Below, piece by piece: positions 8,087 to 28,611 of a stretch of 64,000 nt of DNA. The DNA comes from Aurantibacillus circumpalustris. Lineage in GTDB: Bacteria > Bacteroidota > Bacteroidia > B-17B0 > Aurantibacillaceae. A program made the translations under genes and the position numbers. The first letter of the stretch is position 1. The number at the start of each line of letters is the position of its first letter. Below the pieces are notes generated by a model. It did no database searches. It saw only the letters and a program-made list of their open reading frames with translations, and was not told the DNA's origin. The DNA lies in contig NZ_CP121197.1 in the NCBI RefSeq assembly GCF_029625215.1, forward strand, positions 1,178,001-1,242,000, read 5' to 3'.

Positions 8087-8884
8087 CTATTCCGTTAAAC
8101 TTTTCTTTTGTAGTAAGATAAAGTAATGATCAGCAAAATTTGCAAACAAGGCAAAGTTTGCAAAAATTCTTTCACAAATATTAAGAGCTTGTAACAGAAT
8201 GGGTTTATTTGCAAAATAGGTATTTAAATAACTTGGAGGGACAAAAAGCCCAATTGGTCTTATTTTTATAGTTCTAAAATCTTTGAAAAAAACAGAACTA
8301 ATCTCTTTTGGTGAATGATAATATGTTAAAAACTGCGCGCCGTTAATTTCAGTTTTTTGGCCTTGTTTTGTGTTTCTTCGTTTGTAGCGTTTGTCACCCT
8401 GCCAGAGGTAAAAAAAATTCTCCCAAAAACATTTTTTGCCCATTATTACTAATGCTAGATGTCCTCTATTTGAAATGGATGAAGAAATATTCGTAGAGAA
8501 TTTTTTTAATTCCTCACCACTTAAACAATTTAAACCGCCAAAATCAGAAAACAAAAGATCAAAGGAAGAAGAAAGTTTTGTGTGTAATTCGTTTATATCT
8601 GAGATTTCAAAAATAACATTGTCAAGATTGTTTTTATTTTTTTTAGCTTGACCTTCCCTTATCATTTCACTAGAAATATCAGTAGCTAAAACCGATTTAA
8701 CTTTTTGGGCTATGTAAATCGCATCTTCTCCTGTTCCGCAATTTATTTCGAGAACTTTTTTTTGTTTGCTTAGCAAAGGAAGTAAGTATTTGTAAACTCT
8801 TTTGCGCTGGAGAATGCCAATTGGAGAATTGGTAAAGTGCTTATCGTAATCTTTAGCGTATGAATTAAAAGACAATGTTGACAT
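8087..8884 (-). CDS. Class I SAM-dependent methyltransferase
   Basis: 265-residue Rossmann-fold methyltransferase. Motif I reads VLEINCGTGEDAIYIA (about residues 40-55), followed by VLATDISSEMI. A weakly conserved motif IV reads LLFSDFGGLNCL (about 108-120). The fold is of the UbiE/Methyltransf_11 type. The acceptor is unknown. Its start overlaps the last 20 bases of the upstream radical SAM gene, indicating translational coupling and co-function. It is the last gene of the four-gene minus-strand operon 12352 to 8087. The C-terminal part (after about residue 200) is hydrophobic and may contact a lipid or membrane substrate. Confidence 0.85.
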   Translation of the reverse strand: MSTLSFNSYAKDYDKHFTNSPIGILQRKRVYKYLLPLLSKQKKVLEINCGTGEDAIYIAQKVKSVLATDISSEMIREGQAKKNKNNLDNVIFEISDINELHTKLSSSFDLLFSDFGGLNCLSGEELKKFSTNISSSISNRGHLALVIMGKKCFWENFFYLWQGDKRYKRRNTKQGQKTEINGAQFLTYYHSPKEISSVFFKDFRTIKIRPIGLFVPPSYLNTYFANKPILLQALNICERIFANFALFANFADHYFILLQKKSLTE

Positions 8885-10316
8885 TCGGTTCAGTTTCTTT
8901 TAGTTTGGAAAGACTTCTTTGAGTCGCTGCTCTATAGAAGGGCCAAGCCGCTAACTTTTTTAAGCCATTTATACTTGATAAACTTTTTATTCTTTTCTCA
9001 GCCTTTTTTTGGCGATAAAGTTTATGAATAAAATGATGAAGCTGTTTATAGAATTCTGCTGAATACGTATTCTGAAACATCAGAGCCATTTCATCAGAGT
9101 CGCTCCAATTAGTTTTTTCCTTTAAGTCTTTTTTTACGAGCTCATAAAATTTTGTTCCTGGCAAGGGATAAGAAACAGAAATGCCGATATCATCTGGCAA
9201 AAGATCTCCTATCATTTTAACAGTAAGTTTTATGTCGTCGATGGTTTCATTCAGATAACCTAACTGGAGAAAAAGACAAACGCGGATTTTGAATTTTTTT
9301 AGTAGAGCTGATGCTTCATAGATTTGTTCAACTTTAGTTCCCTTATCCATGGCGTCCAATATTTTTTGAGAACCGCTTTCAGCACCCATCCACACTTCTG
9401 TACAGCCAGAATCTGCAAGCGCTTCAATGTATTTTGGTTCAACCAATAAATCGGCACGTGACTGAATTTTGTACGCAATTTTCAGATTCTCTTTTTTTAC
9501 AGCCTCTGAGAATTCAATAACCCAACTAGGTTTTAGCCCAAAAATATCATCTGCAAACCAAACATGTGTAAAGCCAAATTGCAATTGCCATTTTTTTATT
9601 TCTTTGGAAATATTTTCAGGACTATGCGTATTGTAACGATTGCCGTAAATAGGCTTAGCGCACCAGTTGCATTTATACGGGCAGCCACGCGTAGTAACAA
9701 AGTTCAATGAAAAGTAGCCGTGTTTTTCCAGCCACATTTTTTTGTAGGGTGCAATGTCAATTAGGTCCCACGCGGGTGCTGGAAGGGTATCAAGATCCTT
9801 CAAAACATCTCTTTTTTTGCTTTTTTCAACTGCTGTATTCTTTAGATAAGCGATTCCCGAAATAGGGTCTATTGATGTCCCAGTTTTGAAAGCGTTACAT
9901 AATTCCAAAACCGTTTGTTCAGCTTCTCCAATTGCAATAACGTCGGCACCATTATTTAAATAACTTTCATAATGATCGGCAGCATCGGAGCTTGATGTAA
10001 TTACTTTACATCCTTTTGATTTTGCATAAGTTTGCATTTCAAAACAAGCTTCGCGCATGTTGGTGAGACACATTTTAGTTAGGTAATTAAAACCATCATC
10101 ATAACTTATAAATATATCTGGTTTAAACGCATCAATAGTTGATTGAATGTCTTTTGACGAATCACAAAACATGGTGTCAAATAATTTTACATCATAACCT
10201 TTCTCTCTCAGGTAAGCCATTGCATAAAGTGTTCCCAGAGGAGGATAGGGCATAGCCGTTTTATATTGTTTGATGTCAAACTTTAAAAAATAGCTATGTG
10301 TAAAAAGTACTTTCAT
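8865..10316 (-). CDS. B12-binding-type radical SAM protein
   Basis: 483-residue enzyme of the BchE/HpnP-like class (cobalamin-binding domain plus radical SAM). The N-terminal about 170 residues have the cobalamin-domain layout: PYPPLGTLYAMAYL near the start and GADVIAIGEAEQTVLELC near residues 120-140. The glycine pair that usually precedes this segment is replaced by SSSDA. The radical SAM cluster is CPYKCNWC (Cys212, Cys216, Cys219). The partner motif GAESGSQKIL is also present. The C-terminus beyond about 400 is basic and helical. It resembles the protein encoded at 24705-26069, including the first 50 residues. The reaction is unknown; methylation or another radical modification of a lipid or glycan is likely from context. 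It sits between a SPASM enzyme and a methyltransferase. Confidence 0.88.
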   Translation of the reverse strand: MKVLFTHSYFLKFDIKQYKTAMPYPPLGTLYAMAYLREKGYDVKLFDTMFCDSSKDIQSTIDAFKPDIFISYDDGFNYLTKMCLTNMREACFEMQTYAKSKGCKVITSSSDAADHYESYLNNGADVIAIGEAEQTVLELCNAFKTGTSIDPISGIAYLKNTAVEKSKKRDVLKDLDTLPAPAWDLIDIAPYKKMWLEKHGYFSLNFVTTRGCPYKCNWCAKPIYGNRYNTHSPENISKEIKKWQLQFGFTHVWFADDIFGLKPSWVIEFSEAVKKENLKIAYKIQSRADLLVEPKYIEALADSGCTEVWMGAESGSQKILDAMDKGTKVEQIYEASALLKKFKIRVCLFLQLGYLNETIDDIKLTVKMIGDLLPDDIGISVSYPLPGTKFYELVKKDLKEKTNWSDSDEMALMFQNTYSAEFYKQLHHFIHKLYRQKKAEKRIKSLSSINGLKKLAAWPFYRAATQRSLSKLKETEPNVNIVF

Positions 10317-10359
10317 ACAATTATCAAGAAGAAAAATAAGAATTGGAACAATACATATT

Positions 10360-11406
10360 TTAATAAAATTTATTTCGTGGAGCCAAATTTAAATAACATA
10401 CACATTTAACACAGGTAGGATTTTTTTGAACATCTAGCGTTTTGCGGTAAGTTATACTTTTACTTGAGTTAAGAATGTCGTGTAATTGATTCTCCCTAAT
10501 TGAACCAATTGAATCATGAAAAAAGCAGGGCCTCACAGTTCCATCAGCTTCTATAACTGTTGATACCCAGGGAGCATTACAATTTTTAAATGGAAATTCT
10601 GCAAGCCCATGATGTGCTTGATAGTACTGATGTATTTTTTGAATTTTAGCGGGTGACTCAGAAATAAAACGGGAGATGTATTCATTCTTAAACTGAACAG
10701 CTAGTTTATCGATCATTTCCTGTAGAGTGGATAATTCATCTTTTTTAACTAGCACCGAATCCTGTTTTTCTTTTTCCCATGGCTCTTCTCGATTAAACGC
10801 ATCGCTAGTAACATCGGCAGGCAAAAAACTAATACTATCTAATCCAATTTCCTTAGCAGACATGATTATTTTATCCCAGATTTTAAAATTAAGTTGATGA
10901 ATGACACAACGAGCCGAAATGGGGAAATCGGGTCGAACTTTCTTAAGCGCTTGAACACCTTTTTTCAATTCGGAATACGCTCCTTTAATGTTTCTTATTT
11001 CATCGTGCGTTGTTTCATCGCCATCTAAAGAGACAATTACTTCATCCACCAGATTAATAATTTTTTCGGCATGTCGTTCAACAGTTAAGCCAGTCGAAAG
11101 CAGTGTGATTTTGATATTTTGTTTTGCAATAAGTTCACAAAACTTAAAAAAGTTTTTATTCAATAAAGCTTCCCCGCCAGACATTACTATTCGTTTTGTA
11201 TCTAACGATTTGAAAGAATTTAATAAGCCAGCAAGATCTTCTTCGCTAAGTTGTTTTGTGTTTTTATTTCCCTTCCAAATATCACACATCACGCAACGGC
11301 AATTGCATGCGCTATGAGGCATAAGAATTGCAATGGGTAACACTTCTATTTTATTTGTGATAGCAGTTTTGTACCTTTTAAGAGTATGAAAAAGTGTCTG
11401 CTCCAT
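10360..11406 (-). CDS. Radical SAM protein with SPASM-type C-terminus
   Basis: 348-residue enzyme using the start at 11406 (MEQTLFHTLKRY). A longer in-frame start at 11544 would overlap the upstream gene by 131 bases and add an unconserved-looking leader, so I prefer the shorter form, which leaves 7 bases between the genes. The 4Fe-4S motif is CNCRCVMC (Cys34, Cys38, Cys41), followed by DIWKGN. The SAM-binding region has MSGGEALLNKNFF and EVIVSLDGD. The C-terminal auxiliary cluster region has NCNAPWVSTVIEADG, RPCFFHD and CVKCVCYL, typical of SPASM/Twitch proteins. Such enzymes act on peptides or small molecules. No precursor peptide gene is visible nearby. The neighbours suggest work on the same product as the adjacent B12 radical SAM enzyme. 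Confidence 0.88.
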   Translation of the reverse strand: MEQTLFHTLKRYKTAITNKIEVLPIAILMPHSACNCRCVMCDIWKGNKNTKQLSEEDLAGLLNSFKSLDTKRIVMSGGEALLNKNFFKFCELIAKQNIKITLLSTGLTVERHAEKIINLVDEVIVSLDGDETTHDEIRNIKGAYSELKKGVQALKKVRPDFPISARCVIHQLNFKIWDKIIMSAKEIGLDSISFLPADVTSDAFNREEPWEKEKQDSVLVKKDELSTLQEMIDKLAVQFKNEYISRFISESPAKIQKIHQYYQAHHGLAEFPFKNCNAPWVSTVIEADGTVRPCFFHDSIGSIRENQLHDILNSSKSITYRKTLDVQKNPTCVKCVCYLNLAPRNKFY

Positions 11407-11413
11407 GAATAAA

Positions 11414-12352
11414 CTATTTAAGTTCAATATTAAAGCGCGTTTCGTATTCTGTTTGTTTTTCACGCCACAGTTTAAGTACTTTATTTTGAAAACCTTTTGT
11501 ATGTCTTTTGCAAACGTTTTTACGAGACCGGAATTGTAATTCAAAATCTTCTACAGCGAGTTCGGGATATTTTTTTTGCCAATGTTTTAATGTTATTTTC
11601 AAAAAGTAATCATCCAGTTTTGTTCCTAAACTACCAGAGAGAATCTTTTCAAGAAATGATTTTAAAAAAGGCTGTGGAGCTTCTTGACATAAGTCACCAG
11701 GGTGTTTTTGTTTATTTGGGAAGCGCCGTTTATACCAATTGTTTTCTTCTAAAAGTGAGTTGTACGCTGAATAGTTAACTGTTGGAATAAGGTGCGCAAG
11801 TTCTGTGCCAGAAAATGGATTATTATCTGGAATAAAAAGACTGTCTGAAGAGATAAAATAATTGGTACACCAAAATTTCCTTTTCTTTTTAGGTAAAAGT
11901 TTATAACGTATAATAAGTAGTGTGCGGCAAATCCACAAGCGATTAGGTTTTGTGATAATGAAAAAATCAATATCGCTTTCATTATCGTAATAATTCTTTG
12001 AGAGGCCACCAGAAAGACAAACACCTTCAACAAAAGGAAAAGAGGCTATTATACGGCTATATTTCACGGCTATAGGCATTATTTTTTTCGCCCCTTCGTT
12101 TCCAAGAAGTCTTTTAGAAAGATCGTTCTTTGTTCTTTCTAAATGCAATATAAACTCGCCATCTTGCTTAAGTAAATTATTATTCAAAAGCCCCAGTAGT
12201 TCTTTGGAAAATTGCTCCCTTGAAATAGTAATAGCAGAGTTTTCAAAGAGTTCGTCTTTTGTTAAAGGATACTTAAAAACGTCAAAGTACAAAACGGCTT
12301 TGATTATTTCTATTTGATCCTGTGTTAAAGACTGTTGTAAAGTTCTTATCAT
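11414..12352 (-). CDS. Nucleotidyltransferase-fold protein of unknown role
   Basis: 312-residue soluble protein. The N-terminal about 90 residues resemble a winged helix (LYFDVFKYPLTKDEL, then helices). The central part carries a minimal nucleotidyltransferase signature, GLSKNYYDNESDIDFFII (about residues 128-145), in which GLS and the D-x-D pair correspond to the GS...DxD metal site. The C-terminal half is basic and helical. It opens the operon with the two radical SAM proteins and the methyltransferase, with 7 bases to the next gene. I do not know its substrate. Candidates include nucleotidyl transfer to a small molecule or sugar, or a toxin-antitoxin-like MNT role. The operon position argues for biosynthesis. 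Confidence 0.6.
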   Translation of the reverse strand: MIRTLQQSLTQDQIEIIKAVLYFDVFKYPLTKDELFENSAITISREQFSKELLGLLNNNLLKQDGEFILHLERTKNDLSKRLLGNEGAKKIMPIAVKYSRIIASFPFVEGVCLSGGLSKNYYDNESDIDFFIITKPNRLWICRTLLIIRYKLLPKKKRKFWCTNYFISSDSLFIPDNNPFSGTELAHLIPTVNYSAYNSLLEENNWYKRRFPNKQKHPGDLCQEAPQPFLKSFLEKILSGSLGTKLDDYFLKITLKHWQKKYPELAVEDFELQFRSRKNVCKRHTKGFQNKVLKLWREKQTEYETRFNIELK

Positions 12353-12511
12353 AGTTTTTGATCCAACTAAAGTATAAAAAAAAGTTTACACTTTAACAAA
12401 GTACTGATAAACAGTAATGACAGACACGGTTTCCAGACCAGTTATTTAAATCGTATTTTTGGTAAAATACACTTCTCAAATTTCACAACGAATAAAAAAA
12501 GCAGGCCATTT

Positions 12512-14014
12512 TTGTATTCTATATTTAAGAAATATCTTTATTTAATTGCATCGATCGTGCTCTTGGTCGTGGAAACAATTCTCGTTGGAAAGGAGCATTG
12601 GACAGGTGATTTCTGGATGCATTCGGCCGTTATAACAGAATTAATTGATCATCCAATCCATCCATCTCATCCAATCATTCGTTCGGAGGTCACCCATGCT
12701 TTTTACTCACCATACGCATTAATGGTGGCCATGCTAGCAAAGGTTTTTGCAAAAGATTCAATTTGGGCTTTGGAAGTGTTTGCTCTGTTCAACCTTCTTT
12801 TTTTTCTTTTTTCTTTTTTTTCTTTTTGCAAAGTCTTTTTCGAAAGACGACAAAATATAATCGCAGCTATTGGCTTAGCACTTGTGCTTTTTTTTTGGGG
12901 ACAAGACCCGCCATTTTGGAGTGGCTATTTCCACATCATCGTGCTGAATGCGGTTTTACCTTATCCATCCACTTTTGCATTCTCTCTGGCCCTATTCGCT
13001 ATAGCGCTTTACATTTCCAATAGAATACGAAATTTTACCTTTAAGAGTGCGCTAATAATTTTACTCACTTCTGTTGTGATTTTAACTCACACCAATACAG
13101 GGATTTTCCTCATCATTGTTCTTACCCTAGTAAATTATTCATTAAAGGAAATGTCTCTTTTCAAAACAGTTCTTTATTCAGGATGCATGTTGTTCTGCTC
13201 GGTTGCGCTTTGTCTGCTTTGGCCATATTACAATTTAATTGAACTTGTAACCGGCGACATTGATGATTTTAATGATCAATCGTATGTTCTTTATGAGCGC
13301 CTGGCTCAACAGTATTGGCCCAGCCTTCTGGCAGTTCCCATAATGATCTATAAAAAGGGTGACAAAATAATTCGGTTTCTAAGTGTTGGTGTTTTTTTGA
13401 TGCTTGGTATTGTTTTTTCGGCCTATTTCGCGAAGTTTTACGGACTTTCGCGGTTGCTGTTTGGTGTCATGTTTTTTTCCGACCTTATAATAGCTTACGG
13501 AATCACCTTATTTTTTAATAAAGAAAGCACAATGCTGAAGCGGTACTATACAGGTCTGGTCTTCTTTGCAATGGTTCTATGCCTGTTCATAAACAGGGTT
13601 TATCTAAGACAAGTTTTCAGGAATCTAAAAAATGAAAAACAAATAGATTATTGTAAAAAGCTGGATTTCATTAAGGAAATCGTTCCTCCTGGTGAAACTA
13701 TTCTTTCTGATGTTGGCACAAATAATATGATCCCAACCTACGGAGCAAGAGTTCTTGCAACATTCTATCCCGTGTATTGGATTCAGGATATTAAATCGAG
13801 AAGAGAATCGGTTGCAGTTTTTTTTGACCCTGAAAAACCGAATTCACTCCGTTTGAAGGCGCTGTTGAACTATAAACCCGAATATATTTTGATTGACCGC
13901 AGCAAATTTAATTTTGAAGAAAGTACAGAAATGTGGCTAAGATCGATAAGCGCAAACACTCAAAAGCGAGGATCAATGGAGCTGATAAAAGTAAACTATA
14001 ATTTGTTCGAGTAA
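12512..14014 (+). CDS. Polytopic membrane protein, GT-C glycosyltransferase-like
   Basis: 500-residue protein with about 10-12 transmembrane segments between residues 8 and 380, then a soluble C-terminal domain of about 110 residues. The first periplasmic loop reads KEHWTGDFWMHSAVI. Its acidic residue close to a Trp and His is like the catalytic loop of GT-C enzymes that use polyprenyl-phosphate sugars. No family match is certain. The start is assigned to TTG at 12512 because no upstream ATG is in frame, so it is uncertain. Pyrimidine tracts with T8, T6, T8 and T5 runs lie at 12795-12827 in the coding strand. It is divergent from the radical SAM operon, and its last 19 bases overlap the convergent methyltransferase gene. 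Confidence 0.6.
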   Translation: MYSIFKKYLYLIASIVLLVVETILVGKEHWTGDFWMHSAVITELIDHPIHPSHPIIRSEVTHAFYSPYALMVAMLAKVFAKDSIWALEVFALFNLLFFLFSFFSFCKVFFERRQNIIAAIGLALVLFFWGQDPPFWSGYFHIIVLNAVLPYPSTFAFSLALFAIALYISNRIRNFTFKSALIILLTSVVILTHTNTGIFLIIVLTLVNYSLKEMSLFKTVLYSGCMLFCSVALCLLWPYYNLIELVTGDIDDFNDQSYVLYERLAQQYWPSLLAVPIMIYKKGDKIIRFLSVGVFLMLGIVFSAYFAKFYGLSRLLFGVMFFSDLIIAYGITLFFNKESTMLKRYYTGLVFFAMVLCLFINRVYLRQVFRNLKNEKQIDYCKKLDFIKEIVPPGETILSDVGTNNMIPTYGARVLATFYPVYWIQDIKSRRESVAVFFDPEKPNSLRLKALLNYKPEYILIDRSKFNFEESTEMWLRSISANTQKRGSMELIKVNYNLFE

Positions 14015-14676
14015 GAAAGTTGAAAAATATAGTTTTTTTCCCATTTGATCATCTTCTCATCTAACACCTTCAGATTTAGTCCATGTAAAGAAGCTATTTT
14101 TTTGATTCTTTGAATGTCGCAGTTTTCCTCGAGAATCATGTACGTTTCTGTCTGGTCGTTCACATAAGTTTTTAACTGGCTGGAAAGCCTTTCAAAATAT
14201 TCCCCGTTTTCACCACAATACCAAGCATAATGCGCGTTTGTTTCTACCTTTTTAAAATAATAAGGCGGGTTTATAACTACAAAATCAAATAACTGCGATG
14301 GGATATTCATAAATAAATCACTCTGATAAATATGGAGGTTTTCAGAGGACTTAAAATTCATGGAAAAATTTAACTGCGTATTTTCGACAGCTTTAGGGTC
14401 TATATCGATGGCGGTTACAGACGCTCCCTTCTGAAAAGCCAACATACTTAGCACTCCGGTCCCAGATCCTATTTCAAGAAAATTTAAATTTGTAAACTTT
14501 TTTTCTAAAAGAAATTTGTATAGATATTTTGTGCTGAAAAATAGTTTTGGGTGAAACACTTCCTTAAATACCTTTAGTTTAAATTTATCAAATTTAACAT
14601 TCGAATCACTTTTAAGGTAAAGCTTAAGAATGTACTTATAAAACGTATTATAAAAAATATACGATAAACGACGCAT
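13996..14676 (-). CDS. SAM-dependent methyltransferase with NPPY motif
   Basis: 226-residue methyltransferase of the small-domain MTS/HemK-like class. Motif I is LEIGSGTGVLSMLA (about residues 68-81). The acidic loop is ITAIDIDPKAV. The catalytic motif is VINPPYY (about 132-138). NPPY is typical of N-methyltransferases acting on planar nitrogen of nucleobases or glutamine side chains. The first about 50 residues are basic. It starts immediately after the stop of the upstream radical SAM gene, with no gap, so the two are translationally linked. Its 3' end overlaps the convergent membrane-protein gene by 19 bases. The true substrate is unknown. Given the partner gene, a small-molecule or glycan substrate is as likely as RNA. 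Confidence 0.8.
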   Translation of the reverse strand: MRRLSYIFYNTFYKYILKLYLKSDSNVKFDKFKLKVFKEVFHPKLFFSTKYLYKFLLEKKFTNLNFLEIGSGTGVLSMLAFQKGASVTAIDIDPKAVENTQLNFSMNFKSSENLHIYQSDLFMNIPSQLFDFVVINPPYYFKKVETNAHYAWYCGENGEYFERLSSQLKTYVNDQTETYMILEENCDIQRIKKIASLHGLNLKVLDEKMIKWEKNYIFQLSYSNKL

Positions 14677-16179
14677 TTAAAAACCTTCTGTTTCGGGTTG
14701 CCTATATTTCCAGAGCACCTGTAATAATCTTAGTTCTTTTGGAAATGTGTATAATTTGAGCTTATACCTCCAGATACTCGCTAGTTTAAAAACTAATTTT
14801 TTTACGGGACTTAATTTTATATCCGACACCGTTGGATGGTAAGCATTTAATACTGTTTCGAAATTTCTTATTTTATCGATCATGTAGGGCTTTAACCAAG
14901 GTGTCAATGGGTTTTTTCTGAGATCAAAGTTTTCCCATGCCGGACTGATCCAATCTTCAAGCGTTTCTGGAAATTTAAACCCTTCAGATTTAACCTGTTC
15001 ATACATGTCAGAACCTTCACTTGGCACGGGACTGTAGGTGTATATAATTATTTCTGTTTCGCGATTTACTTCTTTTATTTTTCGAATAAATGCAATATCA
15101 TCGTCAATTTGTTTATTCACCCTGCTTTCTGATTCTAGTGGTGTGCCGAGAACAAATGAATACTCAGGGATAATTCCAAATTTTTTAAGCCGTTCGGCAA
15201 AGCTTACAATTTGTTCCGCGGTTTGAGTTCCGCCTTTATCCATTTTTTTTAATATTTCATCGCTTCCAGTCTCTGCTCCAAAGAAGATCATTTTGCAACC
15301 TGCTTCTTTAATCAGTTGCAAAGATTCATCTTTATATTTATCCATGGTATCAATTCGCGCTTCTCCCCACCACACCATGTTTTCATTCTTAATAAGTTTT
15401 GCGAATTCAACGACACGTTTTTCGGAGACAAAAAAATTATTATCATGAAATTCTATAGCATCGGCACCATACTTGTCTTTCAAAGCTTTCACATCTGAGT
15501 AAACTCCCAACGCTGATTTGCCTTTCCATCGAGCGTTGTAAATAGGAACTACCGCGCAGAAGGAGCAGGTAAAAGGACAACCAAAACTGCTATGATACGC
15601 CAAGGTTTTTTTCCCTAAATAAGACGGACCAAGATACCTTTCAATTGGATAAAATTTGTTGAGAGCATCGTAAGGCAATTGAGGCAATTTATCGAGATCT
15701 GGCAGTTCGTCCTTGCCGGTTTTAATAAACTTATCTTCTTTTTTATAGATGAGATTTTTAATATTTTCTAAAGGCAAATTTTCAGCGATAGCTTTTAGTA
15801 ATTGTGGGAAGGTAGAATCTCCGGGACCGTTAACCACATAATCTACAAAACCAGAGTTTAAACACACTTTATATTGATTCGATGCAAAATACCCACCCCA
15901 AACAATTGTTACCGCTGGATATTTTTCTCTAATTTTTTTACTGATTGGAATTGCTTCCTTTAATTGAGGGCCTGGCATAACGCTACAGCCAAAACAAGTA
16001 TATTCTCCAGTTGAAAGGTATTTGTCAATTTTCAACCACGAATCTTTTTCTAAGTTTCCATCTACAATTGTCCATTCGTAAGTTGAATGAATACTTGCCG
16101 CAACCTGCAAAATACTGTTAGGAATGCGGGGTTTGTACTTAGCTGCGCGGGGATTAAATAGTAATACTCGTGATTTCAT
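14677..16179 (-). CDS. B12-binding-type radical SAM protein
   Basis: 500-residue enzyme with an N-terminal cobalamin-binding-type domain (CSVMPGPQLKEAI, then VWGGYFASN with the expected glycine pair, then VDYVVNGPGDSTFPQLL). The radical SAM motif is CPFTCSFC at Cys201, Cys205 and Cys208. Further hallmarks are EFHDNNFFVSEKR and FFGAETGSDEILKKMDKG. The C-terminal about 100 residues form a helical tail (PWLKPYMIDKI...). It is less like the other two B12-type radical SAM proteins of the locus than those two are like each other. It is directly followed by the NPPY methyltransferase. The reaction is unknown; radical methylation at unactivated carbon and other rearrangements are known for this superfamily. 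Confidence 0.87.
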   Translation of the reverse strand: MKSRVLLFNPRAAKYKPRIPNSILQVAASIHSTYEWTIVDGNLEKDSWLKIDKYLSTGEYTCFGCSVMPGPQLKEAIPISKKIREKYPAVTIVWGGYFASNQYKVCLNSGFVDYVVNGPGDSTFPQLLKAIAENLPLENIKNLIYKKEDKFIKTGKDELPDLDKLPQLPYDALNKFYPIERYLGPSYLGKKTLAYHSSFGCPFTCSFCAVVPIYNARWKGKSALGVYSDVKALKDKYGADAIEFHDNNFFVSEKRVVEFAKLIKNENMVWWGEARIDTMDKYKDESLQLIKEAGCKMIFFGAETGSDEILKKMDKGGTQTAEQIVSFAERLKKFGIIPEYSFVLGTPLESESRVNKQIDDDIAFIRKIKEVNRETEIIIYTYSPVPSEGSDMYEQVKSEGFKFPETLEDWISPAWENFDLRKNPLTPWLKPYMIDKIRNFETVLNAYHPTVSDIKLSPVKKLVFKLASIWRYKLKLYTFPKELRLLQVLWKYRQPETEGF

Positions 16180-16251
16180 AACTTGAAGTGAACTAAGGTA
16201 TAAAAAAAAGAATGAAATTGATCGTCATTAGACCCTTTATATATGATAAGT

Positions 16252-18352: not shown

Positions 18353-18358
18353 CGCTAT

Positions 18359-19498: not shown

Positions 19499-21057
19499 AA
19501 TCGAACACTTCTTAATTTATAAAATCGAGCACCTTGATTTAGATCACTCATAAAAACAATGCTATTTCCATTGTAAAGAAAAGGATTACGTTTATTATCC
19601 TTTGAATCGCATATGACTTTGTTTTTATAATAAATTACATTCTCCTTTATAAACAAATCATCTTTTAACTCTGACTTTTTATTAAGTACGAATGTTTCGC
19701 TGTAATCTTCGGCTCCTAATACACTTTTTAGTGTTATGGAATCATTGTTTAATACTATATCGTAAAGGATTCCCTTAGTATTTTGAATTGGAAAATAGTT
19801 TACAGCACGAATAGGAAATGTAAAATATTTAAAAAAGAAAATGGGTACAAATAAATATACTAATGTTTTTAAATCAGGTTTTATGTTAATTGACACTATA
19901 AGAAGAAGGAATATAAGAATCAGACCAAATAAGCGACTAAACCGGATCAAAAAAGGAAAATTCATAAAACTTCCAATTGGCGCACTTACTGTGAGGAAAA
20001 TAAAGAAAAGCAATATGTATTTGAGTTGCAAATTGGAAGAAATAATAGAAAAGCTTAGCGGTAAAAGTAATAACATACTGTAACTAGTATTATATTTTCC
20101 CAAGAGAATTCCAGCTAAAAGTGTAAATGAATAAAAAAGAAAAGAATTCTGCTGTCTAAACTTAATGACTAAGACAATAATAAACGTAAAAGAGAGACTT
20201 TCAAAAAGAATAACTAAGTGGGCGTTGTTTAATGTGGGATTTGGATTTGAAAGCTCATCATAGGAAAATAATTGTAAAAGAGCTGTATAAACACTTTGGT
20301 TGCCATAATAATACGTTCCCACAACATCATTGTTAAAAAGTCTAGGGAGTATGTCTGTGAAGTAATACCAGGTGGTGTCTTGCGGAAGGATTAAACAAGT
20401 TAAAACAAAAAGGGTAGCGGTTAGTCCTAATGTAGTGAACACTAGTTTAAATTGTTTTTTAATTAAAAAGTAAATTAAAATAAAAGCGGGAAAAAGTTTG
20501 AGTGAGATCACTATTGCAAATAATAAGGAGGAATAAAACACACTACCTTTTTCAGAAGATAAAAATCCTTCAATAAGAAATGCAGAGATGAGAAGATAGG
20601 TTTGTCCTTGTGAAATGTTGTTATAAATGGGATAAATAAATACAAGTGGCAGAAAATACAAAAGCCAATGACGAATCTCTACAAACTTTAAGAGTCGAAA
20701 TAAACTTAAACAAAATAGCAGTAGACTAATAATATTGAAAACAACTTTAGCTCCTTGGCTTTTTAGAAAACAAAACGGAATGTAAAACAAAGCACTGAAT
20801 GGGGGGACGGATAAATAGTTTTCAAAAAAGTTATTTTCACCATATAATCCTATTTGTTTGTTAAAATAGTGGATGCTGGTGTAGATTTCAGAATTAAATT
20901 TACCGTCTAAAAGTAGTTTACTGCCGTAATAATAATTCCCAAAATCTTTTATGGGTTCATTTAGACAAAACAGAATGCATAAGCTCCCAATCACAAAAAA
21001 TAACAAGGGAATGTATGTTGCTGAAATATTCCTCTTCATTTTAAAATTATCAGGCAC
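19495..21057 (-). CDS. GT87-like membrane glycosyltransferase
   Basis: 520-residue polytopic protein of the GT-C fold. The N-terminal helix is followed by a periplasmic loop with DFGNYYYGSKLLLDGK, where the Asp is a candidate catalytic base. The segment NISQGQTYLLISAFLIEG (about residues 150-170) corresponds to the N-x-x-x-GQ signature of the GT87 (DUF2029, PimE-like) family, followed by SLKLFPAFILIYFL. About 10 transmembrane helices extend to residue about 410. The last about 110 residues form a soluble tail with a beta-strand pattern that I do not recognise and that is not usual for GT87. It would use a polyprenyl-phosphate sugar outside the membrane. It overlaps the acyltransferase gene by 4 bases. 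Confidence 0.75.
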   Translation of the reverse strand: MPDNFKMKRNISATYIPLLFFVIGSLCILFCLNEPIKDFGNYYYGSKLLLDGKFNSEIYTSIHYFNKQIGLYGENNFFENYLSVPPFSALFYIPFCFLKSQGAKVVFNIISLLLFCLSLFRLLKFVEIRHWLLYFLPLVFIYPIYNNISQGQTYLLISAFLIEGFLSSEKGSVFYSSLLFAIVISLKLFPAFILIYFLIKKQFKLVFTTLGLTATLFVLTCLILPQDTTWYYFTDILPRLFNNDVVGTYYYGNQSVYTALLQLFSYDELSNPNPTLNNAHLVILFESLSFTFIIVLVIKFRQQNSFLFYSFTLLAGILLGKYNTSYSMLLLLPLSFSIISSNLQLKYILLFFIFLTVSAPIGSFMNFPFLIRFSRLFGLILIFLLLIVSINIKPDLKTLVYLFVPIFFFKYFTFPIRAVNYFPIQNTKGILYDIVLNNDSITLKSVLGAEDYSETFVLNKKSELKDDLFIKENVIYYKNKVICDSKDNKRNPFLYNGNSIVFMSDLNQGARFYKLRSVRF

Positions 21058-21072
21058 TTAAAAATTCATGCT

Positions 21073-21942
21073 TCAGGGGTTATTAATTTTTAACCTTTTA
21101 GTGTGAAGAAAGATAACACCAATTATCAATGAAATGGGAATAAAAAACAAACAGAGAATTAGTATTCTTGGAGGCCAGGTATGGCGTGAAGAGACAACGC
21201 AGCCTTTTACTAACTGAAACCGATCTATAAAAACAGTTTGTGCCATTAGCGTAGATTTTTTGTTTATTAATTCTGTTCCCGCTTCATAAACCGCGGTTGG
21301 ATGAATTAAGTCGGTAAGTGGTAGTTGAGTTTGAGTATTTATTTTTTGTTTTTCATAAGCGGCCAACTGTAATTTTTTTAAACTATCTAACTGAATCAAA
21401 TCTTTGTTTATTTGTAAAAGTTTAAGATTAATTTGAGCTTCCTGCAACTTTCTTATCTTAAAGTAATACGGGTTGTTTTCTAAATACCGCATTATACCCA
21501 ATTGAAAAGGTAATATCATTTGATTATTTAAACTTTCCACAACAATTTCTACTGTATTAGTAGAATCTCCCTTAGTTATTTCGGATGGTTTTATTTTAAT
21601 TTCAACCAAATTGGAAACCAGCGAAGAATCAAGCTCAAGAATTAAGGAGAGTGTTTTTTTATCACCGTTTTCAAGCAGAGCAGGAATGTCGTTTAATATT
21701 TTAAAATAAATTTTGTCTCTAAAGTCGGTTGATCGTATTACAAATGAGGAGGAATAAACCTTTGGTACAAAAAACTTAAATCCTACAGAGGCAATAATAC
21801 CTAACAAAATAAAAGCAAGTGAAATTATTTTATTTTTTAAGAGAAGAATAACGGGATAAGCAAAAAAAGAAAATATTTTTCTGGCTAGTAACCCAAAATC
21901 TATTTCGTCGTCTGGAATTTTAGAAATTTCAGTATTTTCCAT
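21073..21942 (-). CDS. Wzz-like polysaccharide chain-length/co-polymerase protein
   Basis: 289-residue inner-membrane protein with a transmembrane helix near residues 38-56 and a second near 260-280. Between them is a periplasmic domain of about 200 residues with a coiled-coil-like stretch (about 165-200). The short cytosolic N-terminus with DEIDFGLLARKIF and the two-helix topology match Wzz/chain-length-determinant proteins. No kinase domain is fused, so this is a Wzz rather than a Wzc type. It opens the minus-strand operon that continues with the GT87-like protein, the acyltransferase, the flippase and GT2. It likely sets the chain length of a polymer made by the O-antigen-polymerase-like protein at 23506. 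Sequence similarity is modest. Confidence 0.75.
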   Translation of the reverse strand: MENTEISKIPDDEIDFGLLARKIFSFFAYPVILLLKNKIISLAFILLGIIASVGFKFFVPKVYSSSFVIRSTDFRDKIYFKILNDIPALLENGDKKTLSLILELDSSLVSNLVEIKIKPSEITKGDSTNTVEIVVESLNNQMILPFQLGIMRYLENNPYYFKIRKLQEAQINLKLLQINKDLIQLDSLKKLQLAAYEKQKINTQTQLPLTDLIHPTAVYEAGTELINKKSTLMAQTVFIDRFQLVKGCVVSSRHTWPPRILILCLFFIPISLIIGVIFLHTKRLKINNP

Positions 21943-22021
21943 AATTAACGCTAATGTATAAAAATATTAAGTAAGCTCAGAGACACTTTAGATAATAATG
22001 GAAACCTATTATAAAATAGTT

Positions 22022-22029
22022 TAATTTCG
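22022..22029 (+). promoter_or_regulatory. Near-consensus -7 element of the plus-strand glycan operon
   Basis: TAATTTCG differs from TAnnTTTG at one position and ends 5 bases before the ATG at 22035. It lies in the 92-base divergent gap (21943-22034) that separates the two halves of the glycan locus. Confidence 0.3.
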
Positions 22030-22034
22030 TGATT

Positions 22035-23519
22035 ATGTCCCTTTCTAGAGAGCAGTTTATTAAGAATTCGGTTTGGACCTTTTTGGAGTTGGCTTTGTAC
22101 CCAATTCTGATGATTATAGCAACCCCTATTTTTATTAAAAAACTCGGAATCGAACAATACGGCTTGTGGATGCTCGTGAGTACCATAACACTCGGTGTGA
22201 ATGTTTTGAATATAGGAGTAGGTGACACCAACATTCGCCTTATTTCGAAATATAGGGCTGAAAATAATTTCGCACTTATAAAGAGAGTTTTCAATTACAA
22301 TTTTTCATTTTCATTGTTTTTATGTTTTTGCGCCATGTTTGTTGGAATAGCTTTCTACAAGTTTAATTTCATTTCGATTTTTTATAAAACTACAGATTAC
22401 AAATTCGCCAGTACAATCCTCTTGTTGGCATGTTTCTCTTCAGGAATTAAATTTATTGAAATTGCTCTCCTTTCTGTTTTTAAAGGTTTTGAGCGGTTCG
22501 ATATTAGCTCTAAATTGATTCTGCTATCTAAAAACTCTATCATGTTTGCAAACTTAGCCCTTGTGATCCTGAACTATGATTTAGTAACTGTTTTTTGTTT
22601 TTCTGTAATAATCAATTTTTTGAATGTCCTTACCCAAATAGCTGTGCTTCATTATTACGAAAGACAGATTATTGGATATCCCAATTTTAAATTTCTAAAA
22701 GAAAAGTTGGAAGAACTGAATTATAATTTTTGGTATTGGCTTCAATCGGTTGTTGCCCTCATGGGTTTTTTGGCTGATAAATTGGTGGTGGCTTATTTTA
22801 CAGATGTTAAAACACTGGGGTATTATTCTATTGCTTCACTCATAGGCACACAAATTCATAACTTTTTTCTCAGTTTTGGTAGTTTTATTTTTCCACGGGT
22901 TTCTTTTAAGCTTGCAGCAAACAAAGAAATTAAAGGAATTTATTTTATCGCCAGGAGCATAGTGGCCCTGATAGGATGGTTTCTAATTCTAACTTTATTG
23001 TTATTTGGTGATTTCGTCTTTAAGGCCTGGTTAGGAAATGAAACTTTTTTAAACAGCATTTACTTCATAAAACTCTATCTCGTATTTGAGGCTGGAATGT
23101 TACTTATCATTGTGCCTTTTTATTTTATAAACGGAACAAAGCATATCAAATTAAATTCTTTGTTTGAAGTAACCATTCGTAGCGCACATTTTTTTGCTAT
23201 ACTACTGGGATTCTATTTGTCAGGTGTAAATGGCATCCTATATGGATTAATCATTTCAACGTTCATTAATATTCCGTTTCAGTATTTCTATTTTCAAAAA
23301 AGAGTTTTGCCCGATTTAAACAGGTTTCAGTTTTTGGTAATCATTTCCCCTGTTTTTTTTCTTTTTGGATTAATTATTTCCACGAACGTCTTTTTTCAAG
23401 TACCTTTAATTTTAGGTTTTATTATTTTATGCAAACTAATTTATTTTGATCCGGCAAAACAACAGTCAAAAGAAATCATCTCACTTAAAGGCTTATTCAA
23501 TAAAATTGAAAATAAGTAA
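22035..23519 (+). CDS. Lipid-linked oligosaccharide flippase (Wzx-like)
   Basis: 494-residue polytopic membrane protein of the polysaccharide biosynthesis/MVF family with 12-14 transmembrane helices. The N-terminal FIKNSVWTFLELALYP and the loop GIEQYGLWMLVSTI are the standard Wzx family features. YFTDVKTLGYYSIASLIG resembles the matching loop in the second half. A GTG at 22029 is also in frame, but the ATG at 22035 gives the usual start. It should translocate undecaprenyl-linked glycan to the periplasm. Its last 14 bases overlap the preferred start of the polymerase-like gene, so flipping and polymerisation are encoded together. It is divergent from the Wzz-like operon. Confidence 0.88.
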   Translation: MSLSREQFIKNSVWTFLELALYPILMIIATPIFIKKLGIEQYGLWMLVSTITLGVNVLNIGVGDTNIRLISKYRAENNFALIKRVFNYNFSFSLFLCFCAMFVGIAFYKFNFISIFYKTTDYKFASTILLLACFSSGIKFIEIALLSVFKGFERFDISSKLILLSKNSIMFANLALVILNYDLVTVFCFSVIINFLNVLTQIAVLHYYERQIIGYPNFKFLKEKLEELNYNFWYWLQSVVALMGFLADKLVVAYFTDVKTLGYYSIASLIGTQIHNFFLSFGSFIFPRVSFKLAANKEIKGIYFIARSIVALIGWFLILTLLLFGDFVFKAWLGNETFLNSIYFIKLYLVFEAGMLLIIVPFYFINGTKHIKLNSLFEVTIRSAHFFAILLGFYLSGVNGILYGLIISTFINIPFQYFYFQKRVLPDLNRFQFLVIISPVFFLFGLIISTNVFFQVPLILGFIILCKLIYFDPAKQQSKEIISLKGLFNKIENK

Positions 23520-24708
23520 GTACTCAGTATTAGCTAACATTTACTTCTTTTTTAATTCTCTTTTTTTACCGAAGGGATTATTATATACTACTATTCTGGG
23601 ACCAATTTTTTTTTACCGGACAGTAAGGTCACAGCGTAAAACATTTCTGAAGCCCTTTAGCGCCTTTCTTATAATTTATGATGCTATTCATCTTTACATT
23701 GGCGTTGATATTAAATCGTTTTTTGTTTCGAATGTGCTTTTTATTTTGACATATTTTTGTGTTATTTCTTTTTATCATTTCGTAAATAATTACGACAAAT
23801 TACCCAAACTATTTAAGGAAGTTCTTCTCTGTAACGCCTTACTGGCTTTACTTGCAATTCCCTTTTTCTTCGCTCCAAAAGAATATCAACAGTGGTTTTG
23901 GTACATAAATAAGTTGACTGTTGGTTTTGAAGGCTTTCCAAGATTGGCTTTGTTTACCTACGAAGCTTCGTATTATTCACTCTTACTTATTCCGGTTTGG
24001 TACTATTATGTTTTTAAATTTTTGTTCAATAGTATTAGTACTCACAAGTGGTTAAACTTGTTTTTAATTACCACTCCAATGATCATGTCTCTTTCATTTG
24101 GTGTTATCGGTGCCAGCCTGCTTACCCTAATACTTATGTGTGTTATTTTTAGTAAAAGATTATATAAGTTCAAACGACCCTTTTTAATCATTACTTCATT
24201 TCTTATTATAATCTCAATGGGCTTATTTATTTTGTGGTATGTTAATCCGGATAATGCCTTTTTTGCACGCCTTCAGAATATTATTGAAGGCAAAGACACG
24301 TCTACAAATGGCAGAACAACAGATTCTTTTACAATGGCATGGCGTATTGCGTATATAAAAAATATTTTTTTCGGCGCTGGCCTGGGACAAATAAAAATAA
24401 TGGCTGCTGAAGTGGTTCATAAATACTACAACTATTGGGGTGTTTTTCCAAGGTATGATATTCCTAACGCTATGGGTGAAACGCTCGCTATCTTCGGTTT
24501 ACTTGGCGTTTTCTTAAGGCTAGTTTTGGAAATGTGGTTGTTTTTTAAAACTCACGTTTTCTCAAACTATTATAGATTAGCATTGTTTATCTTTGTTTTT
24601 ATTTATCAATTCACAGGTAGTTTCATTACTAACATTGTTGAATACGTTATCTGGATTTTGGCGTTTTCAAATGCATTCACGCAGTTTAATAAAAATAAAA
24701 AGGTATGA
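23506..24708 (+). CDS. O-antigen ligase/polymerase-like membrane protein
   Basis: 400-residue polytopic protein with about 10-11 transmembrane helices. A large periplasmic loop around residues 270-330 has FFGAGLGQIKIM and then PNAMGETLAIFGLLGVF. This is the G-x-G-x-G...N...E pattern of Wzy/WaaL-type proteins. The start is uncertain. TTG at 23506 (14-base overlap with the flippase) is preferred, and a TTG at 23446 would overlap by 74 bases; no ATG is available near. It likely polymerises or ligates the glycan. The next gene starts with a 4-base overlap, linking it to the third B12-type radical SAM enzyme. Confidence 0.72.
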   Translation: MKISKYSVLANIYFFFNSLFLPKGLLYTTILGPIFFYRTVRSQRKTFLKPFSAFLIIYDAIHLYIGVDIKSFFVSNVLFILTYFCVISFYHFVNNYDKLPKLFKEVLLCNALLALLAIPFFFAPKEYQQWFWYINKLTVGFEGFPRLALFTYEASYYSLLLIPVWYYYVFKFLFNSISTHKWLNLFLITTPMIMSLSFGVIGASLLTLILMCVIFSKRLYKFKRPFLIITSFLIIISMGLFILWYVNPDNAFFARLQNIIEGKDTSTNGRTTDSFTMAWRIAYIKNIFFGAGLGQIKIMAAEVVHKYYNYWGVFPRYDIPNAMGETLAIFGLLGVFLRLVLEMWLFFKTHVFSNYYRLALFIFVFIYQFTGSFITNIVEYVIWILAFSNAFTQFNKNKKV

Positions 24709-26069
24709 TAGTTCTAACACATGGATATTTTTTGGAAGATGATTTGAAGGAGCAGAAAATCATGAAACCCTATGTTCCACTGGGTATCCTTTATATTTCG
24801 GCTTTTTTAGAAAGTAAAAGAATTAACCACGAGGTATTCGACTCTACTTTTTCAAATTTTGAGAAATTTAAAATTTATCTGGAAGAGAAAAAACCAAAAC
24901 TGATTGGGATCTATACCAATTTAATGACCAAAATAATGGTTTTAAAAATGGTGGAGTATATAAAAAAAAGCGCCGAATTAAAATCATGCAAAATTATATT
25001 AGGGGGACCAGAAATTCGTTACAATGCCGAGAACTACTTAAACACTGGAGCCGATATGCTTGTTGTTGGTGAAGGAGAAGAGACTTTTTTTGAACTGTGC
25101 GACCAATTCTTAAAGACTGGACATCTTTCAAACGAAGTTTCAGGAACAGCATTTTTGGTGAAAAAAGAAGTAGTTTTTACCCAAGAACGTTCATTAATTA
25201 AAGACATTAATGTATTGCCAATGCCGGCGAGAAAAAACATCGACTTAAATTTGTATGGCAATGCATGGAAGAAACATCATGGGTATAGTATGTATTCTGT
25301 AAGTACTATGCGTGGGTGTCCATACACCTGTAAATGGTGCAGTAGGGCAGTGTATGGCGGCACTTATCGCCGCCGTAGTCCGAAATTAGTGGTAGATGAG
25401 CTGGAGTATTTAAAAATCAATTATAATCCTGATCAAATTTGGTTTGTAGATGATGTTTTTACAATTAATCATAAATGGTTGAAAGAATTTAAAACTGAAC
25501 TTTTAAGCCGGAAAATTGTTATTCCCTATGAAATCATAACGCGGGCAGATAGAATGAACGACGAGGTTATTCAAATATTAAAAGAAACAGGTTGTTTTAG
25601 GGTGTGGATTGGGGCGGAAAGTGGCTCTCAAAAAATTATAGACGCCATGGATAGACGAGTAGAAGTGACAATGGTGCGCGAAATGATTATTAAAACGAAA
25701 AAAGCCGGTATTCAAGCTGGCACATTTATCATGTTAGGCTATCCTGGTGAAAACCGATCAGACATAAAAGAAACTATTAATCATTTGCAACTATCTGATC
25801 CTACTTTTTATACCATTACTGTTGCTTATCCAATTACCGGAACACCTCTGTATAATGAAGTGTCTTCTACTTTAAATTCGCTAGGTGATTGGCAAAAAAG
25901 AACAGACAGAGAATATGACTTTCAAAGAAAGCACAGCAAAAAATTTTATTTACATGCAATTGATTGGGTATATAACGAAGTGAACTTTAAGAAAACAAAT
26001 AATATTATCAAAAAGGTAAAACACAAATCCCGCTCCGTCATCGCGCAAGCAATGATGTTTTTAAGTTAA
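24705..26069 (+). CDS. B12-binding-type radical SAM protein
   Basis: 454-residue enzyme. The N-terminal cobalamin-binding-type domain has PYVPLGILYISAFLES, IILGGPEIRYNAENYL with the usual glycine pair, and GADMLVVGEGEETFFELC. The radical SAM cluster is CPYTCKWC at Cys205, Cys209 and Cys212, with SRAVYGGTYRRRSP following. WIGAESGSQKIIDAMDRR and GYPGENRSDIKETI are further family hallmarks. It is a clear paralogue of the protein encoded at 8865-10316, including shared N-terminal THGYFL/THSYFL and the AESGSQKI block. The gene overlaps the polymerase-like gene by 4 bases, so it belongs to the glycan operon. The reaction and substrate are unknown. Confidence 0.88.
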   Translation: MIVLTHGYFLEDDLKEQKIMKPYVPLGILYISAFLESKRINHEVFDSTFSNFEKFKIYLEEKKPKLIGIYTNLMTKIMVLKMVEYIKKSAELKSCKIILGGPEIRYNAENYLNTGADMLVVGEGEETFFELCDQFLKTGHLSNEVSGTAFLVKKEVVFTQERSLIKDINVLPMPARKNIDLNLYGNAWKKHHGYSMYSVSTMRGCPYTCKWCSRAVYGGTYRRRSPKLVVDELEYLKINYNPDQIWFVDDVFTINHKWLKEFKTELLSRKIVIPYEIITRADRMNDEVIQILKETGCFRVWIGAESGSQKIIDAMDRRVEVTMVREMIIKTKKAGIQAGTFIMLGYPGENRSDIKETINHLQLSDPTFYTITVAYPITGTPLYNEVSSTLNSLGDWQKRTDREYDFQRKHSKKFYLHAIDWVYNEVNFKKTNNIIKKVKHKSRSVIAQAMMFLS

Positions 26070-26087
26070 CGAAATTAATACTGTTTC

Positions 26088-26816
26088 ATGTTTGGCGACG
26101 TAAATTTAAAATACGAATTATCACGCATACGTAGCAAAATGCGTAGTCAAGAGGACCAAGCTATTGAAGAAGCAAAAAAAATATTAAGGCAGGATCTTCT
26201 CAGTAATAAAAAAATTTTAGACAATTTATCGCTTTATAGTAACACCTACGATGTAATTGATGAAGAGGATGTAAATTACTCAGAAATATTTACAGCTAGC
26301 GAAATAAAAAAAGTCGCAATACTATATAGATTAAAATTTCTTGACCATAACTTATATAAACCCGAAATACCTGACGAGATTGAATTTAAAATTCAGAATC
26401 TCAACCATACTTTTAGTAAAGAAATTAAGGGTTATAAAATCCTAGCTCCATATGGCGCGTTCGAAAAGGCCACCAATCCTATGGAATCAACTCTATTCGT
26501 AAAAACGAATTATGATAATTATTATTTGTTGCACCGTTGGGGAAAACCTATTAAAGCAAAAAGAAAATTCCAATTCTTACCACTGAGAAACTTTGAGTTT
26601 TTGGTAACTACAATATTTCTAGTAACAATGATTATTGCAGTTTCATTACCAACACGGTTAATCACACTCGATCACAAAGCTGAATATTGGAGTGGTTACC
26701 GTGCGGCAGCTTTTTTTCACCTTTTAATTTTTAATTTTGGGGTCACAGTCTACTTCACTTTCGCATTTGCAAAAAACTTTAGTAGCAGCGTGTGGAATAG
26801 CTATAAAGATTTTTAA
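26088..26816 (+). CDS. Hypothetical membrane protein
   Basis: 242-residue protein I do not recognise. The N-terminal about 180 residues are charged and soluble, with a helical stretch at residues 10-45. Two transmembrane helices lie at about 185-200 and 212-232 near the C-terminus. A short segment GYKILAPYGAFEKATNP and LLHRWGKPIKAKRKF precede the first helix. It begins 18 bases after the radical SAM gene and is the last gene of the plus-strand operon. It ends 3 bases from the convergent ferredoxin gene. No catalytic motif is visible. It could be a small accessory membrane component of the glycan locus, but that rests on position only. Confidence 0.55.
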   Translation: MFGDVNLKYELSRIRSKMRSQEDQAIEEAKKILRQDLLSNKKILDNLSLYSNTYDVIDEEDVNYSEIFTASEIKKVAILYRLKFLDHNLYKPEIPDEIEFKIQNLNHTFSKEIKGYKILAPYGAFEKATNPMESTLFVKTNYDNYYLLHRWGKPIKAKRKFQFLPLRNFEFLVTTIFLVTMIIAVSLPTRLITLDHKAEYWSGYRAAAFFHLLIFNFGVTVYFTFAFAKNFSSSVWNSYKDF

Positions 26817-27146: not shown

Positions 27147-27194
27147 AATTTTGAGGCGCTAATTTCAATAAAATCTATAAATAAACGTTAAAAA

Positions 27195-27599: not shown

Positions 27600-27601
27600 T
27601 C

Positions 27602-28537: not shown

Positions 28538-28611
28538 CTGCTCAGCGCCCGTTCATATTATAACAAACGGAAAGAGTAATAAATTTATTAAAAATTTCAG
28601 AAAGTGGTTTT

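Follow-up and report, generated by a model that had tools for sequence, protein, structure and literature searches.

Genes at the Locus

The window analysed here is a stretch of 64,000 nucleotides (positions 1178001-1242000) of the one-contig, 4.6 Mb genome of Aurantibacillus circumpalustris. Between its positions 8087 and 26816, it carries genes encoding radical S-adenosylmethionine (SAM) enzymes, methyltransferases and a protein of nucleotidyltransferase fold (NT), lying amid genes that resemble those for polysaccharide assembly. Sequence comparison shows well that NT, two B12-type radical SAM enzymes (rS1 and rS2) and two methyltransferases (MT1 and MT2), often accompanied by a third radical SAM enzyme (rS3) and sometimes by a SPASM-type radical SAM protein, constitute one conserved, separable biosynthetic cassette of five to seven genes. 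Window proteins were scanned with Pfam and NCBIfam, and a missing Pfam match refers throughout to E 0.001. The cassette genes found in the window are the following:

8087-8884, minus strand: MT1, class I SAM methyltransferase (Methyltransf_25, 52.3 bits)
8865-10316, minus strand: rS1, B12-type radical SAM enzyme, cassette core (Radical_SAM, 71.7 bits)
10360-11406, minus strand (open reading frame from TTG 11544): SPASM radical SAM protein, accessory (Radical_SAM 62.6 bits, SPASM 42.1 bits)
11414-12352, minus strand: NT, predicted winged helix plus nucleotidyltransferase-fold protein, cassette core (from a structure model)
13996-14676, minus strand: MT2, methyltransferase with an NPPY/F-type motif (MTS, 49.2 bits), directly after rS2
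14677-16179, minus strand: rS2, B12-type radical SAM enzyme, forming a second submodule with MT2 (Radical_SAM, 51.0 bits)
24705-26069, plus strand: rS3, B12-type radical SAM enzyme (Radical_SAM 83.6 bits, B12-binding 46.1 bits)

The initial annotation, made from the DNA letters, had described three B12-type radical SAM proteins, one SPASM protein, two methyltransferases and a nucleotidyltransferase-fold protein among glycan genes, and this inventory is borne out by the open reading frames (ORFs), the Pfam scans and the model of NT. The gene overlaps of 4 to 20 bases that it had reported also appear in the ORFs of the window, 20 bases being shared by MT1 and rS1 and 4 by a Wzy-like gene and rS3. 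The SPASM gene more likely starts at ATG 11406, just after the stop codon of NT, than at TTG 11544.

A Conserved and Co-Occurring Cassette

Two sets of loci were compared, namely stretches of at most 20 kb around NT within the order of the window (36 loci) and 353 loci that the NT alignment, used as a profile, retrieved from genome contigs. Of the latter, the best 80 are used for all counts given per 80 loci. Their titles indicate Bacteroidota in the wide sense, including, where the group is named, Ignavibacteria and a Kapabacterium, and the named isolates carrying the cassette are Ohtaekwangia koreensis, Pseudochryseolinea flava and Fulvivirga imtechensis.

Across the 36 loci the order rS2-MT2-NT-(SPASM)-rS1-MT1-rS3 recurs, with gaps in some of them and with varying glycan genes. 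In the 80 loci, NT is directly followed by rS1 in 67 (median gap 0 bases), rS1 by MT1 in 51 (-8), rS2 by MT2 in 38 (-1), MT2 by NT in 37 (2) and MT1 by rS3 in 34 (-4). This close packing is seen in Bacteroidia as well as in further classes of the phylum. Taking into account that some contigs are short, so that gene presence is a lower bound, at least 71 of these loci contain rS1, 59 MT1, 45 rS2, 45 MT2, 41 rS3 and 7 a close relative of the SPASM protein, and 35 have the full set of NT, rS1, MT1, rS2 and MT2. A looser SPASM profile was found in 15 of the 52 long loci (at least 18 kb) and in none of the 40 control stretches described below; on this distribution, the SPASM gene is an accessory member of the cassette.

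The neighbourhood of rS3 and the Wzy-like gene seen in the window is repeated in locus L074, and elsewhere rS3 is mostly located behind MT1. Judged from these positions, the overlap between rS3 and the polymerase-like gene is a local arrangement. The radical SAM genes had initially been taken as interleaved parts of a Wzx/Wzy-type locus; this picture is not supported in so simple a form, and a separable, co-occurring cassette takes its place.

The distribution of the genes was followed in 87 genomes of the order, 62 of which form a good set (completeness of 90% or more, contamination of 5% or less). Orthologues were counted above the wide score gap that separates them from paralogues, with match lists cut at E 1e-60. 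NT is encoded in 38 of the 87 genomes. Within the good set, NT and rS1 occur together in 29 genomes and are both missing in 33, neither being found singly; rS2 is present in 27 of the 29 genomes with NT and in 1 of the 33 without it, and rS3 in 20 of 29 and 0 of 33, respectively. When all 87 genomes are considered, NT and rS1 are found together in 36, NT alone in 2 (a contig-end fragment and a genome 58% complete) and rS1 alone in 1 (78% complete).

A sample of 396 Bacteroidia genomes, in which rS1 was counted at E 1e-100 and rS2 at E 1e-120, gave a similar pattern. Setting aside three marginal NT matches (G184, G260 and G354, E 4e-5 to 3e-4), which brings NT from 67 to 64 of the 396 genomes, rS1 is found in 56, always together with NT, and in none of the 332 genomes without NT; rS2 is found in 44 genomes, 43 of which have rS1. 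Co-occurrence of homologues across Bacteroidota genomes had been set beforehand as the test of the proposed gene set, and it was found both in the order (29 of 29 good genomes) and in the class (56 of 56 genomes with rS1). In a sample of the phylum (392 genomes), 30 encode rS1, including 21 from classes other than Bacteroidia, a few of these matches being partial or lower-scoring. Since the genomes are related, Fisher values overstate independence, and weight is placed on the pattern rather than on p-values. Pairwise protein distances are also correlated, as for rS1 and rS3 (r 0.84) or NT and rS1 (r 0.72), with the lowest value for NT and MT1 (r 0.45). Carriage on plasmids was dismissed, rS1 having no match at E 1e-40 in a plasmid collection.

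Radical SAM Proteins and Methyltransferases

The three cysteines of the CxxxCxxC motif are invariant in rS1 (28 rows), rS2 (26 rows) and rS3 (16 rows), with mean column identities of 61%, 70% and 58%, respectively, over the same rows; rS3 is about 35% identical to rS1. With regard to the B12-binding domain (Pfam cut-off 32.1 bits), rS3 is the only protein above the cut-off in the protein scans, rS1 and rS2 scoring 27.5 and 30.0 there and 28.2 and 32.4 in the whole-genome search.

The structure model of rS1 (predicted local distance difference test, pLDDT, 83.8; below 50 in the cluster loop) matches over its full length OxsB (Z 25.8), AprD4 (25.5), MgmA (23.9) and TsrM (23.6). Thus, rS1 models as an enzyme of this type, with a fold tied among the four and a putative use of cobalamin; AprD4 has the OxsB-type fold and is not known to use cobalamin. 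The two-domain architecture over the whole length and the CxxxCxxC motif are common to rS1 and these enzymes, whereas identity is only 13-20% and here three such enzymes belong to one cassette. The substrate of OxsB is a nucleotide. That of AprD4 is paromamine, according to the title of its structure record.

Among the NCBIfam matches listed (25 of 31 for rS1 and 25 of 33 for rS3), which include PhpK, BchE, HpnJ, HpnR, TIGR04072 and AprD4, no cut-off was passed, the best scores being 132.9 bits for rS1, 115.8 for rS2 and 160.0 for rS3 against cut-offs of 481, 578 and 600. The family TIGR04295 (B12_rSAM_oligo) likewise comprises B12 radical SAM proteins, and the best score obtained with the window was 89.7 bits against a cut-off of 400; we take its name to refer to oligosaccharide loci, that is, to a B12 radical SAM family named for its glycan context.

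In MT2, P137 and P138 are invariant in 13 rows and N136 nearly so, with a mean column identity of 46%; this NPPY-type motif presumably points to N methylation. Matches of MT1 and MT2 in the PDB are weak, MT2 resembling HemK/MJ0882-type enzymes, and neither protein passed an NCBIfam cut-off among the matches listed. On these listed matches, the identification of the radical SAM proteins and methyltransferases as known enzymes was rejected.

Methyltransferases are also frequent around the cassette, with 10 among 130 flanking ORFs and 2 among 130 control ORFs (p 0.03, Pfam). A third class I family, MT3 (locus L148, 13235-14002, plus strand), has been observed in 14 of the 80 loci, often behind MT1 or rS3, and in 14 of the 52 long loci versus 2 of the 40 controls.

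The possibility of an anti-phage defence system was considered and discarded, the only PADLOC matches being partial ones (the methylase part of mad2, viperin and PDC-M51A) of 32-60 bits, with none for NT or rS2.

The Nucleotidyltransferase-Fold Protein

NT has no Pfam, NCBIfam or PDB sequence match. Its model (pLDDT 94.7) shows an N-terminal winged helix followed by a nucleotidyltransferase-like domain. The best VIA match is an aminoglycoside nucleotidyltransferase, which covers residues 87-292 with a Z score just above the tool's "common" range (Z 8.7, root-mean-square deviation 3.0, 113 aligned), and winged helices match at about residues 6-74. This enzyme, ANT(4')/kanamycin nucleotidyltransferase, shares with NT the G-[GS] and D-x-D motifs, and differs from it in sequence (13-15% identity) and in the extra winged helix at the N-terminus of NT. 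In the 38 aligned rows, G115, D127 and D129, which belong to these motifs, are invariant, residue 116 being mostly serine and a glycine in the window; E184 is also invariant, and mean column identity is 46%. Aminoglycoside nucleotidyltransferases target a sugar hydroxyl. A LicD-like phosphotransferase is a possible alternative identity of NT; among the fold matches listed, none is so named.

In genome G031 (locus L060), two NT genes have been observed about 9 kb apart on opposite strands, with 61% and 33% identity to NT of the window.

The Glycan Neighbourhood

The remaining genes between 12512 and 26816 are the following:

12512-14014, plus strand: membrane protein, GT-C-like by context, with no Pfam or NCBIfam match
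16252-17166, minus strand: family 2 glycosyltransferase (GT2; Glycos_transf_2, 104.2 bits)
17153-18352, minus strand: Wzx-like flippase candidate, no Pfam match; relatives: 11/52 long loci, 0/40 controls
18359-19498, minus strand: acyltransferase 3 (Acyl_transf_3, 53.1 bits)
19495-21057, minus strand: GT87 glycosyltransferase (GT87, 93.2 bits); relatives: 13/52 long loci, 0/40 controls
21073-21942, minus strand: Wzz-like chain-length protein by context, no Pfam match; relatives: 5/52 long loci, 0/40 controls
22029-23519, plus strand: Wzx-like flippase candidate, no Pfam match; relatives: 5/52 long loci, 0/40 controls
23446-24708, plus strand, start uncertain: Wzy-like polymerase or ligase (Wzy_C 31.6 bits, cut-off 31.7)
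26088-26816, plus strand: membrane-protein-like gene, no Pfam match; relatives: 8/52 long loci, 1/40 controls

The glycan gene names of the initial annotation stand in part. GT2, GT87 and acyltransferase 3 pass their cut-offs and Wzy_C falls just under it, while the names of the Wzx-like, Wzz-like and GT-C-like proteins, which lack a Pfam match, rest on length, topology and context; a profile built from the GT-C-like protein matched no relative in the 80 loci. The reported absence of an initiating transferase holds for the window, in which neither PF02397 nor PF00953 was found, the genome having three of each, all located elsewhere. The locus is similar to Wzx/Wzy polysaccharide loci in its GT2, GT87, acyltransferase 3 and Wzy_C-like genes, and in its flippase-like genes as judged by context; it differs from them in having no initiating transferase in the window and a fixed radical SAM cassette inside. 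The gene at 26088-26816 stays close to the cassette across genomes of the order.

The association with glycan genes was analysed with profiles for glycosyltransferases, Wzx, Wzy_C, Wzz and acyltransferases in the 52 long loci and in 40 control stretches placed by hand in cassette-bearing genomes. Such profiles were found in 43 of the 52 loci and in 5 of the 40 controls, a contrast that is weakened by the training of the profiles on cassette loci and by the origin of 26 of the controls in the window's own order. A neutral test with Pfam took 130 of 256 cassette-flanking ORFs in 54 loci, mostly from other orders (at least L075, L090 and L099 are from that of the window). Glycos_transf_1 was found in 9 of these ORFs, Wzy_C in 6 and Wzz in 3; in the 130 control ORFs, Glycos_transf_1 appeared 3 times, and Wzy_C and Wzz lie outside the 25 families listed, so that they amount to at most 2 each. 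Pooling the three families gives 18 against 3 to 7 (p 0.001 to 0.03).

Individual loci illustrate this neighbourhood. Wzy_C genes adjoin NT in several of them, and an ABC transporter is located behind rS3 in Ohtaekwangia, Fulvivirga and relatives, and behind MT3 in Pseudochryseolinea. In G702, which belongs to another class, Wzy_C, NT, rS1, MT1, ABC, GT2, GT4, MT2, GT87 and SPASM genes lie on both strands within about 20 kb, with no rS2 seen there, and in G186 ABC, GT4 and GT2 genes are found beside rS2-MT2-MT3-SPASM-rS1-MT1, with Wzy_C beside NT. On the sequences compared, the glycan link of the cassette is statistically supported and not universal; the tie between the radical SAM set and glycan genes, as initially claimed, is kept in several lineages, while homologues lacking glycan genes, named beforehand as a refuting result, are seen in a minority of the loci (9 of the 52 long ones, by the profiles used).

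Proposed Function and Alternative Explanations

The high conservation of the radical SAM proteins over these distances, while the glycan genes change, suggests a conserved substrate. With regard to the kind of substrate and the order of the steps, which we infer from the gene order, co-occurrence, radical SAM conservation and glycan enrichment observed, we consider the chances evenly balanced that the product of the cassette is a conserved building block with modified carbons and methyl groups, destined for a glycan or glycolipid that is exported. According to this proposal, the cassette would build a single small, conserved unit, for which a sugar or sugar-like compound is the likeliest candidate. 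NT, as its modelled fold would suggest, may transfer a nucleotide to a hydroxyl group of this unit, either as activation or as a tag, and rS1, rS2 and rS3 would use radicals to alter unactivated carbons, by C-methylation, deoxygenation or rearrangement. O or N positions would be methylated by MT1 and MT2, perhaps N in the case of MT2, given its NPPY-type motif. Later, locus-specific glycosyltransferases would attach the unit to a glycan carried on a lipid; a Wzx-like or ABC flippase would export this glycan, and the Wzy_C protein, where present, could polymerise or ligate it. A bolder form of this proposal, about which we are rather doubtful, is that of a phylum-wide pathway in which a nucleotide-tagged sugar or sugar-like intermediate would be acted on by two to three B12-type radical SAM enzymes in succession and methylated at least twice, leading to one conserved, chemically new unit common to very different Bacteroidota surface glycans.

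Several observations weigh against the building-block proposal. The cassette is sometimes split, as in G008 and G032, where rS1 and rS3 are on a different contig from NT and rS2, and 8 of the 64 NT-bearing Bacteroidia genomes have no rS1. The fold scores of NT are modest, Foldseek returning nothing under E 0.001, and besides the invariant D127 and D129 no third catalytic acid was recognised. Moreover, enrichment of the ABC-exporter profile by itself is marginal (7 of 52 long loci versus 4 of 40 controls), Glycos_transf_1 alone gives 9 versus 3 (p 0.14), the pooled Pfam comparison reaches only p 0.03 in its worst case, and the 25 Pfam families most frequent in the flanks include none of a sugar-nucleotide pathway, no search having been aimed at such genes. 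Finally, 9 of the 52 long loci (L077, L088-L091, L093, L101, L102 and L122) have none of the glycan profiles used. This last observation would suit an independent role of the cassette in the modification of a cofactor, RNA or protein, or in the synthesis of a diffusible small molecule, with the glycan neighbourhood being incidental. The likeness of MT2 to HemK/MJ0882-type enzymes fits this explanation too, and the extra methyltransferases of the flanks (10 versus 2 of 130) suit a small-molecule pathway. However, the glycan link repeats in several distant lineages with differing transporter types, and a patchy presence (NT in 67 of 396 Bacteroidia genomes, marginal matches included) is ill-suited to a housekeeping step; we therefore consider an incidental neighbourhood unlikely.

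It could also be thought that the cassette modifies a lipid, its radical SAM enzymes alkylating or rearranging the chain, acyl or polyprenyl, by which the glycan is anchored or carried. The flippase-like proteins and ABC exporters suit a lipid-linked product, acetyl-CoA-synthetase-type AMP-binding proteins are encoded by 3 of the 130 flanking ORFs, and HpnJ, HpnR and TIGR04072, models of lipid enzymes, match cassette proteins with at best 126, 91 and 128 bits, far below their cut-offs. Nevertheless, PhpK (160 bits) and BchE (133 bits) outscore them, which makes such scores generic, and the flank families listed (25 of 144) include none of desaturase, polyketide or prenyltransferase type, so that modification of a lipid seems to us no less improbable than an incidental neighbourhood. 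The suggestion of an unusual modified lipid or sugar, possibly undescribed, with which the analysis started, is thus sustained with respect to the unusual gene set, which scores below the NCBIfam cut-offs listed; the kind of product is a matter of interpretation in which a lipid competes with a sugar.

A pathway for a ribosomally synthesised and post-translationally modified peptide, with the SPASM protein as its maturase, appears very unlikely. A SPASM radical SAM protein is encoded in the cassette here and the loose profile extends to 15 of the 52 long loci, but it is absent from most loci, and no widely common small ORF accompanies the cassette: the surroundings of the cassettes contain 217 ORFs of 25-89 codons, and the most widespread set among them is confined to 5 loci (L119, L125, L128, L129 and L137) of similar gene order, in agreement with the initial statement that no precursor peptide is visible. 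The surrounding glycan genes vary strongly, as would be expected if tailoring genes of a variable O-antigen locus had come together here without any fixed module. Against this view, which we find scarcely credible, the conserved order, the co-occurrence and the correlated distances speak strongly.

A literature search judged by titles and the first lines of abstracts, with most subscription journals and preprints outside its reach, returned no description of the cassette. Individually, the enzymes fall into known superfamilies, and tailoring enzymes have precedent in glycan loci; there is, taken together, a real chance of new chemistry. What was an odd gene list of one genome has become a defined co-occurring cassette spread over Bacteroidota, and its presence in named isolates makes the question directly testable. 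Given the strong conservation of the radical SAM proteins amid variable glycan genes, determining a single structure could reveal a unit used by many environmental bacteria.

Neighbouring Genes

A family of secreted proteins of about 380 residues, in many cases lipoprotein-like (L083, 5117-6262, plus strand), has relatives in 15 of the 80 loci and in L206 and L208, often within or beside the cassette operon; it has no Pfam or NCBIfam match (one member scanned) and was not found in the window. The heme-type motif GKPxKCxWCHE is kept in the 17 aligned members. Another gene recurrent beside the cassette (L106, 7780-8958, minus strand; also in L095, L096, L123, L148 and L203), whose L203 member matches an amidohydrolase, has relatives in 0 of the 40 controls.

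In the window, MT1 is adjoined by a gene for a secreted-protein-like product (6637-7980, minus strand), which scores 501.7 bits against a profile seeded with a protein of L092 that Pfam calls an arylsulfotransferase. An epimerase-like gene (1253-2218, plus strand), adjoining a peptidase-like gene (2307-4745), has relatives in 7 of the 80 cassette loci. On the other side, ferredoxin, glyoxalase, DnaJ and aldehyde dehydrogenase genes (26820-30054, minus strand) form a locus border that is conserved in several genomes of the order.

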